From contig NZEE01000083.1 of NCBI GenBank assembly GCA_002688965.1, forward strand, positions 1 to 6,280: a stretch of 6,280 nucleotides of DNA, given 5' to 3'. Of the stretch, positions 770 to 6,244 are shown one piece after another. A model generated the notes under the pieces. The model was not told the origin of the DNA and ran no database searches. It worked only from the letters and a program-made list of their open reading frames with translations. How positions within the stretch are numbered: the first letter of the stretch is position 1; every line of letters begins with the position of its first letter. Position numbers and translations under genes: made by a program. Source of the DNA: an archaeon. GTDB taxonomy: Archaea; Aenigmatarchaeota; Aenigmatarchaeia; GW2011-AR5; GCA-2688965.

Positions 770-832
770 TGGGAGAGCCGATTTCATATGAGATCAATGT
801 GAGTTAGCCTGCATTAGCGCAGAGTCTCTCAC

Positions 833-840
833 TATAAATA
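833..840 (+). promoter_or_regulatory. T4-type late promoter match (TATAAATA)
   Basis: TATAAATA at 833-840 is a perfect match to the single-element late promoter of T4-like phages, which is read by the phage sigma factor with a sliding clamp. It points rightward; a transcript starting a few bases downstream would run into the string of hairpins at 865-1110 and end at the T-rich tract near 1119. The octamer also forms most of the loop of a 6-bp inverted repeat (824-829 with 841-846). In A+T-rich DNA an octamer match can arise by chance, so position and context carry the call. Confidence 0.45.
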
Positions 841-864
841 AGAGACGGCAATATGCGGTTTCGT

Positions 865-911
865 TTTTTGGTGATTTTTCCGAACGGTCTAAATAAAAAA
901 ATCATCAAAGA
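865..911 (+). repeat. 15-bp stem-loop (hairpin I)
   Basis: Bases 865-879 pair with 897-911 over 15 positions, including two G:U pairs (T866-G910 and G871-T905), around a 17-nt loop (880-896) that itself contains CCG-AA-CGG. The wobble pairs make RNA structure more natural than a DNA operator. The next inverted repeat starts only 2 nt later. Confidence 0.6.
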
Positions 912-913
912 TT

Positions 914-1009
914 AGAGAGTGTTGTACGATACCATAGATGCACAAGTTAAAAAGTTTTCGTTTGATATAAATCTTATTAATTTATCTAAGTCACTCATCA
1001 ACACTCTCT
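914..1009 (+). repeat. Long-range 11-bp inverted repeat (hairpin II)
   Basis: AGAGAGTGTTG (914-924) is perfectly complementary to CAACACTCTCT (999-1009), closing a 74-nt interior. Inside, GATATAAAT near 963-971 can pair with ATTTATC near 979-985 with one bulge. The closed 96-nt domain has roughly tRNA size, but it lacks a T-loop and a proper 3' end, so it is not called a tRNA. Confidence 0.55.
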
Positions 1010-1033
1010 CCACAATTAAAATGGTTACATTAA

Positions 1034-1068
1034 GCCAATGCGGACTTCCTTCCTTTCACCGCATTGGC
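1034..1068 (+). repeat. 10-bp perfect stem-loop (hairpin III)
   Basis: GCCAATGCGG (1034-1043) pairs perfectly with CCGCATTGGC (1059-1068) around the 15-nt loop ACTTCCTTCCTTTCA. It is markedly G+C-rich for this window. No T-run follows, so alone it is not a terminator; the next hairpin begins 5 nt later. Confidence 0.75.
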
Positions 1069-1073
1069 GTCCA

Positions 1074-1119
1074 GGGCGGTAGTGTTTTAGGACTCCTTTC
1101 ACTACCGCCCATTTTATTT
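1074..1119 (+). terminator. Strong hairpin with T-rich tail upstream of cobS
   Basis: GGGCGGTAGTG (1074-1084) pairs perfectly with CACTACCGCCC (1100-1110), an 11-bp G+C-rich stem with a 15-nt loop, followed by ATTTTATTT (1111-1119). This is the geometry of a factor-independent terminator with an interrupted U-tract. It would stop transcription from upstream, and a fresh promoter for cobS follows within 30 bp. The loop carries ACTCCTTT (1092-1099), complementary to the cobS Shine-Dalgarno. Confidence 0.65.
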
Positions 1120-1228: not shown

Positions 1229-2434
1229 ATGAGTAAAAAAATGATTCTCCCCGATGTTATATGTGAAGTCGTAAAATCTGGTAATAGATATAATGCGCTT
1301 GATACAGATGGTAATAAATACACATCTGAAATAACTTGGGGATGTAGAAAAAATGCCCATAAGGGTGGATATCTAATTGGTAGGTTTCCATCGAAAAATG
1401 GCAAAACAGGATCTTCGTGGCGGAGATGTACTGATAAGGTATTAGCCGCTGTAAATGAATCAATACCGGTTACCGGTGATGTGATTGATGAGAATGTATT
1501 AGTTGATGTACCTACAGATCATTCTGAAATGTTAAATTTTATTCATTCATCTTATTCACTCAAACCTCGTGGTTTAGTTATGAATGAATTAAAATGGAAG
1601 TATCTTGTAAGGTCAGCGGTACGTGGTAAAAATATAATGATGACTGGACCTTCAGGTTGTGGTAAGACGATGGCAGCTAAATCATTAGTTAACGCATTAG
1701 ATAGACCTGACTTCTATTTCAATTTGGGAGCAACCCAGGATCCCCGATCTACATTAATCGGTAACGTGCATTTCAATGAAGGCACTGGAACTTTTTTGTC
1801 GGAAGCCTTATTTGTAAAGGCTATTTCAACACCAAATGCGGTGATACTATTAGATGAGTTAAGTAGGGCTCACCCAGATGCGTGGAATATTCTTATGACA
1901 GTATTGGATTACGGACAGCGTTATCTAAGGTTGGATGAGAAAGAAAATCAGGCAACCATAAAAGTAGCTCCTGGCGTTACCTTTGTAGCAACCGCTAATA
2001 TCGGTAATGAATATACTTCAACTAGGGTAATGGATAAAGCCTTGATGGATCGTTTTACTATAGTAGAGATGGATGTATTATCAGAAGACGAAGAAAAAGA
2101 TCTTCTATCATATATGTTTCCTCACGTTAACTCAGATACTATTAGTAACGTATCCAAGATAGCGGCACTAACAAGAGCGGAATCCAGAAACAATTCAGCT
2201 AGAATCCCTAGTGGTATTAGTACAAGGACAACGGTTGAGTTATGTGGGTTACTATATGATGGCTTCTCATTAGCAGAAAGCGCTGAGGTTAGTATCTATC
2301 CACAATATGATAACACCGGTGGTGGAGATAGTGAAAGAACATTTGTGAAGCAAATTGTCCAAAAATTTTGTGACGATGGAACTTCCGATGACCTCTTTAA
2401 TGAAGAAGAAACTGAAGTAGCTACCGAAGTCTAA
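1229..2434 (+). CDS. cobS: CobS-like AAA+ ATPase of marine T4-like phages
   Basis: A 401-aa protein from the MoxR/CobS branch of AAA+ ATPases. ATG 1229 follows AAAGGAG (1213-1219) by 9 bp; TAA 2432-2434. An unusual N-terminal part of about 100 residues with no recognised domain comes first. The ATPase core shows Walker A GPSGCGKT (140-147), the segment FNLGATQDPRSTLIGN (164-179), Walker B VILLDEL (205-211, D209/E210), sensor-1 ATAN (254-257), the arginine-finger region DKALMDRF (R275) and STRTTVEL (331-338, probable sensor 2). The stretch around NLGATQDPR...LRLDE is what I know from the 'cobS' gene common in T4-like cyanophages. Bacterial CobS is the ATPase subunit of aerobic cobaltochelatase (with CobN and CobT) in cobalamin synthesis. 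In phages the role is not established, and no CobN or CobT lies here, so another MoxR-like chaperone role is possible. The tail is acidic (EEETEVATEV). Confidence 0.9.
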   Translation: MSKKMILPDVICEVVKSGNRYNALDTDGNKYTSEITWGCRKNAHKGGYLIGRFPSKNGKTGSSWRRCTDKVLAAVNESIPVTGDVIDENVLVDVPTDHSEMLNFIHSSYSLKPRGLVMNELKWKYLVRSAVRGKNIMMTGPSGCGKTMAAKSLVNALDRPDFYFNLGATQDPRSTLIGNVHFNEGTGTFLSEALFVKAISTPNAVILLDELSRAHPDAWNILMTVLDYGQRYLRLDEKENQATIKVAPGVTFVATANIGNEYTSTRVMDKALMDRFTIVEMDVLSEDEEKDLLSYMFPHVNSDTISNVSKIAALTRAESRNNSARIPSGISTRTTVELCGLLYDGFSLAESAEVSIYPQYDNTGGGDSERTFVKQIVQKFCDDGTSDDLFNEEETEVATEV

Positions 2435-4234: not shown

Positions 4235-4936
4235 ATGAGTAGAAATAAAACATTGTTAGGCAGAAGCGCGATAGGATCTCCTACATTGGTACAATCACAA
4301 ACTCGACATGGGCAAAGGGGAAGTCGTAGAGAACAATACCAGTATATAAAATGTCCTACGGGATATCAATGGAATGGAAATAAATGTGTGCAACAGCTTG
4401 GTGATCATCTTAAAGTTGTTCCGAAAAATCTGCAGACTCGAAGTGATATCGACCCCTATTCAGGCATTCAATTAATGACAGATGAATTTAATCCTGGTGT
4501 CGCTACTGGGAATGGATTTCATGTAATTGATGTCGACGCAAATAGACTTCTAGTAGGTGGTGATAAAGACTTATGGATATTGAATATAGATTCAGGGGAG
4601 TGGAATAAAATATATGACCAATCAGAAGAATGGTTAGGTACACCCTGGCAATGGGAAATGGCAGGGGATTGGATTATATGGTTATCTAAACATGATATTA
4701 ATGATCCCGGAGGGCAGGAATGGGATTTCGAAAATATGGGAAAGATATTTGTAAAAAATATTGTCACCGGCATAGCCACAGAAATTTTTAATTTACAAGA
4801 TTTATGCGATACAAATTATAACAACTGTTCAGTGATGACTCGACCAAATATGTTAAGTATATCAGAATTAGGATATGCCGCTATTTCAATCAAAAAGTAT
4901 TGTGAATACGATCCACCTAATTCAGATTGCCAATAG
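4235..4936 (+). CDS. Beta-propeller-like Cys-bracketed protein, N-terminal part up to in-frame amber
   Basis: This 233-residue frame is the first part of a 510-codon frame that continues unbroken after TAG 4934-4936. The basic N-terminus (about 1-38, no signal peptide) precedes a cysteine motif CPTGYQWNGNKCV (40-52). From about residue 93 come repeating beta-strand patterns: DANRLLVGGDKDLWILNIDSG, AGDWIIWLSKHD, GKIFVKNIVTG. They resemble TolB-like propeller blades, each a 'gd.ivW' strand followed by an 'i.v.di.tg' strand. The amber falls between the paired strands of one blade (YAAISIKK ... AEVILFDL), so the short product alone should not fold as a closed propeller. No Shine-Dalgarno precedes ATG 4235, and the next in-frame Met is far inside. 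A virion or secreted binding function is inferred from the propeller and cysteines; no specific family recognised. Confidence 0.7.
   Translation: MSRNKTLLGRSAIGSPTLVQSQTRHGQRGSRREQYQYIKCPTGYQWNGNKCVQQLGDHLKVVPKNLQTRSDIDPYSGIQLMTDEFNPGVATGNGFHVIDVDANRLLVGGDKDLWILNIDSGEWNKIYDQSEEWLGTPWQWEMAGDWIIWLSKHDINDPGGQEWDFENMGKIFVKNIVTGIATEIFNLQDLCDTNYNNCSVMTRPNMLSISELGYAAISIKKYCEYDPPNSDCQ
4934..4936 (+). other. In-frame amber codon inside the propeller gene
   Basis: The reading is ...TCA GAT TGC CAA TAG CCA AAT TGT GCA..., i.e. SDCQ-stop-PNCAEVILFDL. The frame stays open and protein-like for 276 more codons. It could be a recent nonsense mutation, a programmed or suppressed amber, a recoded TAG, or a sequencing error. 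The same gene also ends in TAG (5765-5767); all other genes with a visible end here use TAA or TGA. Confidence 0.85.
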
Positions 4937-5044
4937 CCAAATTGTGCAGAAGTTATATTATTTGATTTAAATCAACAGACTCAAGAAATAATCCAGGATG
5001 GTATAGATTGCGGTAGTGAAACGTGGGGAGGTCCGGACGTTTAT

Positions 5045-5767
5045 ATGAAAGGTGATAAAATAATCATGGGAAACCATGATGGTTATCCGGAGGTATTGTA
5101 TTTTTACGATATATCATTATCAGAAATAACAAATATAGTTGATGTTAGTTCATTGTGTTCAGGATGCGGTACTTTTTTTAAATTATTTGATTATGATTTT
5201 GAAACAAATAGGATGTTATTTAGAAATTATTTATATGAAGATGCACTATATAGAGTGTATGATTTTAACACTAATCAAATCATAGTAGAAATAGGTGCTC
5301 AAGAAATTTCTGAAGGTGGTGGTCGTACATTTCATGGTAATGATGACCAATATGAAAAAATTAATACAAACAACGATCGAGACAATTGGATTATATGGAT
5401 GTGGGGCGGAACACACGGAAATAGCCTTTTGGGAAGACTCGGGAGAATACAAGGAGATCTTGTCTATATAGGACAAAGAATGTATGACAATTGGACCGTA
5501 TTCACTGGGCTGATAGTTCAGTATGATATCGCGACAGAACAATTACAGGTTATAAATAGTTATTACGAAGATGCGATGGGTGAAGCACGTGATTGGAACG
5601 TAGAAGGCGATTTATGTTGTTGGGTTGAGCGGACTGAAGTTGAAAATATTTATTGCTTCCGACCTACTGCTCCATTCGAAGGTCCATGTCCAGAACATAT
5701 TGTATGCCCGTCTGGACAGCAATGGGATGAATTGACATGTAGTTGTGTTGATATGTTTGGAGTATAG
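5045..5767 (+). CDS. Beta-propeller-like protein, C-terminal part after the amber codon
   Basis: The first ATG after the amber gives 240 residues, but the coding pattern is already present from 4937 (PNCAEVILFDLNQQTQEI), so this is the rest of the 4235 gene and not an independent gene. The only ribosome-site candidate, GGGGAGG at 5025-5031, is 13 bp from ATG 5045, which is long. Further blade-like segments follow: KGDKIIMGNHDG...VLYFYDIS, NRMLFRNY...YRVYDFNTNQI, DRDNWIIWMWGG, QGDLVYIGQ...LIVQYDIATEQL, EGDLCCWVERTEVENIYCF. The end carries a second cysteine motif, CPSGQQWDELTCSCV (491-505 of the full frame), mirroring CPTGYQWNGNKCV near the N-terminus. Such bracketing suggests disulfides or a duplicated attachment module at both ends. 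Stop TAG 5765-5767. Confidence 0.65.
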   Translation: MKGDKIIMGNHDGYPEVLYFYDISLSEITNIVDVSSLCSGCGTFFKLFDYDFETNRMLFRNYLYEDALYRVYDFNTNQIIVEIGAQEISEGGGRTFHGNDDQYEKINTNNDRDNWIIWMWGGTHGNSLLGRLGRIQGDLVYIGQRMYDNWTVFTGLIVQYDIATEQLQVINSYYEDAMGEARDWNVEGDLCCWVERTEVENIYCFRPTAPFEGPCPEHIVCPSGQQWDELTCSCVDMFGV

Positions 5768-5911: not shown

Positions 5912-6244
5912 ATGTACGGTATGATAAATAAAGCTATTAGGACATTAGTAATCAGAGAAGCTGGTGAGGATGTTTGGAATACGGTTTTAGAAACTTCTGG
6001 TATAGACGAAGATGTTTATGAGGATTTAGAAACACACGATGACTCTATAACATTTACATTAGTAGGAGCTGTTTCAGAAACATTAGATTTACCACCAGGT
6101 GATGTACTTGAGATGTTTGGTGTCTATTGGTCTACTGATGTTGCACCTAAAGCGTATGGTGAATACTTTGGTAGATATATAAAATTTTGGGATAACCCAG
6201 CATATGATTTTAAATTAGGTTTAAACTATCAATTCAAATGGTAA
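5912..6244 (+). CDS. H-NOX/HNOB-like short protein lacking the heme-ligand histidine
   Basis: A 110-aa protein; ATG 5912 follows AGGAG (5900-5904) by 7 bp, TAA 6242-6244. Residues 1-83 read as the N-terminal half of an H-NOX (heme nitric oxide/oxygen binding) domain: MYGMINKAIRTLVI, a Trp at 22, HDDSITFTLVGAVSETL (42-58), PPGDVLEMFGVYW (61-73), then AYG (81-83), closely paralleling soluble guanylate cyclase beta and bacterial H-NOX. Full H-NOX domains are about 180-190 aa, with a proximal heme histidine near residue 100-105 and a later YxSxR motif binding the propionates. Here the chain ends soon after YG in FWDNPAYDFKLGLNYQFKW, with no histidine after H42 and no YxSxR. Neither other frame restores them. 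So it is either a degenerate, heme-free derivative or a short family acting by protein contact. Gas sensing should not be assumed. The next gene starts 15 bp downstream, suggesting an operon. Confidence 0.8.
   Translation: MYGMINKAIRTLVIREAGEDVWNTVLETSGIDEDVYEDLETHDDSITFTLVGAVSETLDLPPGDVLEMFGVYWSTDVAPKAYGEYFGRYIKFWDNPAYDFKLGLNYQFKW

Follow-up and report, generated by a model that had tools for sequence, protein, structure and literature searches.

Bacterial sRNAs such as LhrC and RNAIII bind Shine-Dalgarno sequences through C/U-rich loops. In phage T4, going by excerpts of PMC3014915, the Shine-Dalgarno sequences of genes e, soc, 49 and I-TevI are sequestered on long transcripts; for gene e, RNA structure silences the long early transcripts and translation proceeds from RNAs started at promoters just upstream. 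In the same excerpts, the T4 gene 32 leader is described as carrying a pseudoknot before the ribosome-binding site. Two other described groups are the T4 stable RNAs rnaC and rnaD, which lie beside tRNA genes (NC_000866), and the manA RNA (RF01745), a structured RNA of marine phages according to the portion of PMC2864571 that treats it.

The locus analyzed here lies in a window of 6,280 nucleotides. Positions 914–1119 precede a gene at 1229–2434 (+ strand) for a 401 aa MoxR/CobS-like AAA_5 ATPase (PF07728, E 1.5e-17; phrog_249 'porphyrin biosynthesis', E 2.7e-27), presumably a cobS gene and named so below. The region consists of a folded domain, M, followed by hairpins whose pyrimidine loops, like those of LhrC and RNAIII, are complementary to Shine-Dalgarno sequences; unlike these sRNAs, it is phage-encoded, adjoins cobS and has no Rfam match at gathering score. 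As with gene e in the excerpts of PMC3014915, RNA lying upstream would hide a ribosome-binding site on long transcripts only and would be missing from transcripts of the proximal promoter, both being proposed here and shown for e. Unlike in e, soc, 49 and I-TevI as described in those excerpts, the sequestering strand would be a terminator-type loop, not the arm of a local helix. The loop lies about 100 nt upstream in the window and up to about 530 nt in one relative (L005), and is preceded by the conserved domain M. A shape similar to that of the gene 32 leader is proposed for hairpins downstream of cobS in distant relatives; unlike that leader, as far as the excerpts describe it, there is no known binding protein here and no local partner was seen in the window. 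The likeness to rnaC and rnaD is that of phage small RNAs found partly near tRNA-like sequence, and the likeness to manA that of a structured RNA of marine phages (PMC2864571, in part), from which M differs as a separate domain, with no manA match in the window.

Rfam 15 returned four matches on the window up to E 5 and three on 740–1130 alone, none of them at gathering score; on 12 relatives it gave nine matches at gathering score, all tRNA. Our literature search, with subscription journals largely outside its scope, found no title or abstract opening describing an RNA of M plus hairpins. We regard it as a new phage RNA family; its principle of action is probably a known one, in a new arrangement.

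Extent of the conserved region and domain M

The first-pass annotation had read five stems at 824–1119 as one RNA, a candidate new phage RNA running from a T4-type late promoter, TATAAATA at 833–840, to a T-rich tail. All five pairings are present: 824–829/841–846 (6 bp), 867–879/897–909 within 865–911 (92% complementary), 914–924/999–1009 (11 bp), and the two hairpins at 1034–1068 and 1074–1110. When folded as that annotation had proposed, 841–1119 reached −86.0 kcal/mol, whereas dinucleotide shuffles gave −52.3 (sd 4.2; z −8.1, 0/200). This low energy is mainly due to the two G+C-rich hairpins, since 1030–1119 gave z −8.75 (0/200 dinucleotide shuffles) and 841–1029 gave z −3.6 (0/200). Folded alone, the other stems were moderate, with z −2.5 for 824–846 (3/200 shuffles), −2.8 for 865–911 (2/200) and −3.1 for 914–1009 (0/200).

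The first two stems fall outside the recurring unit. The 824–846 stem is weak, and no homologue of it was found in the relatives compared; 842–862 pairs with itself in the folds of both 841–1119 and 824–1119, so the stem is not formed as described. An RNA beginning downstream of TATAAATA would, moreover, lose the 5′ arm of this stem. TATAAATA did not behave as a late promoter: across 14 related phage sequences and the window, the sense strand has 138 copies, where trinucleotide composition predicts 141.5. Of these copies, 25 are intergenic, above the non-coding share of those sequences (3–19%), for which A+T-rich spacers could be the cause. For the 865–911 hairpin (+ strand, loop GAACGGUCUAAAU), a homologous hairpin was seen in one relative only (L001 3522–3562; L167 is the same contig), in whose genome M sits elsewhere. 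We rejected 865–911 as a member of the unit: GAACGGTCTAAATAAA is present in 14 IMG/VR stretches and the hairpin only in that contig. A match of 781–818 to L021 was also discarded, as it looks coding and has no common fold. What stands of the original candidate is thus 914–1119, which recurs as a unit; judged by sequence, it is a conserved structured phage RNA region in which 914–1032 forms one domain, M. The five-stem unit and its late promoter were not retained.

Domain M (914–1032, + strand) is made of an outer helix (914–924/999–1009), a variable inner stem and a single-stranded tail, ACAAUUAAAAUGGUUACAUUA. Its internal loops have conserved letters, AUAC near 929–932 and AGUCACUC at 989–996. 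Relatives were taken from the best 80 of 326 IMG/VR stretches encoding a relative of the 1229–2434 protein. Eleven carry M upstream of cobS, as GAGAG..AACC..CATACTT, a variable stem, then CAGTCCCTC..GGTTCTCTCCTCACAATTAAA; an exact-core scan of IMG/VR returned only these 11 contigs. Five of them served to build a covariance model (R1), which recovered all 11 from the 80 loci and scored the window at 20.7 bits (E 0.17), on a par with three antisense matches in other loci (19.6–20.6 bits). Over 20 whole records, R1 gave a strong match in 13, one apiece, two of which were new (G001 and G006). In both, one gene's stop codon precedes M and the next gene, which is not cobS, has its ribosome-binding site and ATG after it, without hairpins. 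A second model (R2), built from the 13 relatives with the window left out, detected 914–1032 with 29.4 bits, at E 9.3e-6 for the window alone and E 0.0012 for 797 kb drawn from 69 sources; no non-member scored above 14 bits. A looser scan for M returned 26 stretches: the 11 known ones, ten without a model match and five more with M, each carrying either the G001 or the G006 sequence.

Compensatory changes, whose absence had been named as evidence against an RNA, are present, with both sides changed in 6 of the 11 outer-helix pairs among the relatives. In an alignment that had been fitted to the structure, the covariation score was 0.427 versus 0.142 in shuffles (0/500), at most 0.082 when the pairing was slid, and 0.444 with the window added. 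Two of the five covariation measures lay within the shuffles, namely double-change pairs (66/500) and pair types (233/500), as they did with the window added (196 and 357 of 500). Owing to a shift of the bulge, 10 of the 14 sequences leave one outer-helix pair unpaired. Conserved coding in 919–1143, which had also been named as contrary evidence, was not found: this ORF was rejected as a gene, since Pfam and PHROG searches at E 0.1 and a tblastn comparison with the fetched loci at E 1 all came back empty.

The largest contig of the relatives, G012 (168,793 bases), gave PHROG matches for 5 of the 10 proteins tried, including the terminase large subunit (phrog_2), the major head protein (phrog_138) and the baseplate wedge (phrog_219). 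We take phrog_2, phrog_138 and phrog_219 to be T4-type. We infer that the relatives' samples are marine. DNA searches of phage records, a pattern scan of genome contigs and a search of IMG/VR for a window-like variant pattern gave no match. Elsewhere in the window, a recurring element, CTTCATTTGGTTTT ... TTAAAG..TACTTTAA, lies downstream of cobS at 2592–2641, one or both of its parts being found in 14 of 81 sequences. The frame at 4235–5767 is open on both sides except for a single in-frame TAG at 4934–4936, for which a nonsense change, read-through and sequencing error cannot be told apart. A Haem-NO-binding domain protein (HNOB, PF07700, E 1.3e-17) is encoded on this phage DNA at 5912–6244.

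Hairpins after M and the partners of their loops

In the window, M is followed on the + strand by hairpin 1 (1034–1068, 10 bp, loop ACUUCCUUCCUUUCA) and hairpin 2 (1074–1119 with its tail, 11 bp of which 8 are G-C, loop UUUUAGGACUCCUUU), both with UCCUUU in the loop. Hairpin 2 is terminator-like (z −7.4, 0/200 shuffles): the T-rich tail already noted after the last stem has 7 T among the 10 bases following 1110, which gives the G+C-rich stem and T run of an intrinsic terminator. Its absence from our terminator scan is explained by the loop lengths of 3–8 that the scan takes. Each of the 12 loci where M lies upstream of cobS, the window among them, has one or two UCCUUU-loop hairpins within 112 nt after M, and 12 of the 14 distinct M sequences have hairpins next, not a gene. 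The best stems have 6–13 pairs; some others are weak, for example the first in L005 and in L013. A T-rich tail after a UCCUUU hairpin (6 or more T among 10 bases) was present at only 7 of the 12 loci, and a promoter-like site between M and cobS at 8 (the window and 7 of 11 relatives), so neither terminator nor promoter was seen at every locus.

The loops are strand-specific. Across the 80 loci and the window, 50 of 357 hairpins have a UCCUUU loop, all on the cobS strand (redundant loci counted). In 1.03 Mb, comprising the 14 related phage sequences and the window, with portions of G001, G006 and G007 that lack cobS, 12 of 182 strong sense hairpins have this loop versus 0 of 143 antisense, none of the 12 being more than 540 nt from cobS. 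With looser stems, 19 such loops were found on the sense strand (13 near cobS, 6 weaker elsewhere) versus 3 antisense. For G001 and G006, UCCUUU hairpin pairs persist upstream of cobS without M; hairpins of this type were mapped at L001 2885–2955 and at L006 4866–4896, together with a preceding one, behind tRNA-Glu.

The UCCUUU of both loops is complementary to the cobS ribosome-binding site AAAGGAGU (1213–1220, + strand), the hairpin 2 loop over 8 nt. At 15 of 15 loci, the loop is complementary over 6–12 nt to its own cobS site, usually AAAGGAG. Within the M lineage, the fit to the own site was not clearly better than to permuted sites (427/5000; 187/500). A further comparison came from more distant relatives, where 31 UCCUUU-type hairpins (26 non-redundant) lie downstream of cobS and the loops fit sequence just before the next gene better than they fit permuted partners. 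For these 26, own matches within 45 nt totalled 171 versus 152.8 (sd 4.5) with permuted partners (0/5000) and versus 143.4 (sd 4.9) with shuffled loops (0/1000). Fourteen match over at least 7 nt, nine of them beginning 10–14 nt past the stem, a spacing that an H-type pseudoknot would allow; in L032 and L044 the match lies about 30 nt past the stem, at or beyond the start codon. Of the remaining hairpins, four match over 6 nt and eight over only 4–5 nt.

Promoters, genomic settings and a possible distant form

A sigma-70-like promoter (TTGACT, 18, TATGAT) was located at 1140–1169 on the + strand, between the hairpins and cobS. It lies inside an element around 1114–1166 that is repeated several times in many relatives and contains the promoter recurring in this phage group, TTGACTT...TATATT, which in the window also occurs at 386–415. 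No promoter-like match was found before cobS in L003, L008, L009 or L012. A scan of 350–1260 (3 sigma-70-like sites versus 4.3 expected in shuffles) found no promoter immediately before 914. An upstream promoter at 386–415 and a DUF7717 gene at 440–769 form a likely transcription unit (386–769, + strand) whose 3′ end would carry M, and we infer that read-through from this unit enters M. Relatives of the DUF7717 gene were found at one locus (L163).

The settings of M vary. In L010, M starts 7 nt downstream of a promoter's −10 box, and a hairpin followed by a T-rich tail closes it. M comes after a stop codon in L005, G001 and G006 and, read by eye, the stop of a short ORF in L039. Also by eye, tRNA-like elements precede it in L008 (about 4595–4672), L003 (about 4640–4718) and L009 (about 4400–4580, two tandem copies). 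These have acceptor-, D- and anticodon-like stems, Gly-like anticodons (TCC/ACC) and an odd T-loop, GGCAGUU; ARAGORN found no tRNA at these elements and Rfam none in L009 4250–4800. A complete tRNA before M in L038 was rejected, as ARAGORN finds none and just T-arm-like stretches are visible. T4 rnaC (L178 1409–1547) ends in the T-arm-like GGGTTCGAATCCC. Homology of M to rnaC or rnaD was also rejected: the best R2 match in NC_000866 69500–74000 was 11.4 bits (E 0.1), not at either gene, and the fold differs. A manA RNA (RF01745) lies immediately 5′ of M in L002 (4321–4534), L012 (687–896) and L014 (4471–4680), with matches of 49.6, 38.4 and 34.7 bits (E 9e-12 to 3e-7) that do not reach the gathering score of 55.2. 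Found behind a promoter, genes, tRNA-like elements or manA, M looks like a portable module, not the leader of one gene.

At five loci, the cobS stop is followed by a long, irregular hairpin that carries CCUCCGAGG on each of its strands, and a structured RNA was delimited at L065 6123–6260, L068 4642–4800, L075 6150–6290, L080 6162–6310 and L064 1413–1560. The CCUCCGAGG hairpin is followed by the M tail, CUCAYAWUUAAA, in L065, L075 and L080, and then by a pyrimidine-loop hairpin. This tail pattern is present in 9 of the 80 loci: three with M, five of the CCUCCGAGG form or near-duplicates, and L036. R1 lists none of the five CCUCCGAGG loci and R2 none of the three searched (L065, L068 and L075). 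Homology to M is therefore no more than a suggestion from order and tail, and the CCUCCGAGG RNA after cobS is a possible distant form of M.

Proposed function and alternatives

Conservation, covariation, the site beside cobS and the sense-strand specificity of the loops are established for 914–1119. What these features do is a matter of interpretation, and we tentatively favor, as quite possible, a conserved module whose terminal anti-Shine-Dalgarno hairpins would occlude ribosome-binding sites and so probably keep cobS silent on read-through RNA. The region would be a non-coding RNA module of a T4-like phage lineage, made up of M and the one or two hairpins after it, with the pyrimidine loops serving as anti-Shine-Dalgarno sequences. 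The hairpins would end most upstream transcripts; on RNA that reads through, the loops would pair with the cobS Shine-Dalgarno sequence and block ribosome entry, so that cobS would be translated mainly from RNAs begun downstream of hairpin 2, at the promoter before the gene. In the distant relatives, the loop downstream of cobS would pair just before the next gene, in a shape like an H-type pseudoknot. The least certain step concerns M, which may protect or process the RNA or bind a partner.

The main rival, which we consider rather unlikely, is a trans-acting sRNA, in which M and its hairpins are free and the loops are seeds repressing several phage or host mRNAs. The layout in L010, of promoter, M, hairpin and T-rich tail, is that of a free sRNA gene. 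M stands behind unrelated neighbors, the loops are retained even where no local partner was found, and in G003, G010 and G013 the longest match of the loop in the genome (12, 12 and 11 nt) lies at the ribosome-binding site of another gene. These long matches, however, hit the ribosome-binding site that these phages use in general, and chance may account for them. Action in cis is favored by the position of the strong UCCUUU hairpins, always beside cobS, and by the fit of the distant loops to the partner downstream of each. Trans action is compatible with cis blocking, the two not being mutually exclusive. A related version, in which a free phage RNA with copies of the anti-Shine-Dalgarno loop switches phage, and perhaps host, translation in trans and M is a portable handle for processing or recognition, seems unlikely to us.

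Two further readings were weighed. M could be a cis-regulatory leader or a riboswitch-like aptamer for whatever follows it, as its place between a stop codon and the next ribosome-binding site and ATG in G001 and G006 would suit, together with the conserved internal-loop letters within its covarying helix. The manA RNA, a candidate riboswitch in the portion of PMC2864571 that treats it, was found just 5′ of M in 3 of 3 suspected loci tested. We hold this leader role to be distinctly improbable: hairpins and not a gene follow 12 of the 14 distinct M sequences, cobS has its own promoter-like site in 8 of those 12 loci, and an unsystematic look turned up no alternative pairing of M with the hairpins. 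It is more doubtful still that the hairpins are ordinary intrinsic terminators of incidental loop sequence beside an unrelated structured spacer. The G+C-rich stem of hairpin 2 and its T-rich tail before a promoter are as expected of a terminator, but the same loop recurs on many different stems, is missing from other strong hairpins and from the opposite strand, and fits its own partner in distant relatives, while M is conserved and covaries on its own.

Marine T4-like phages carry structured RNAs without a known role, and among these M with its hairpins has covariation, a near-fixed address beside cobS and an explicit pairing partner. If the loops do act on ribosome-binding sites, terminator hairpins would both end transcripts and silence read-through, and would offer a handle on how these phages time their auxiliary genes.
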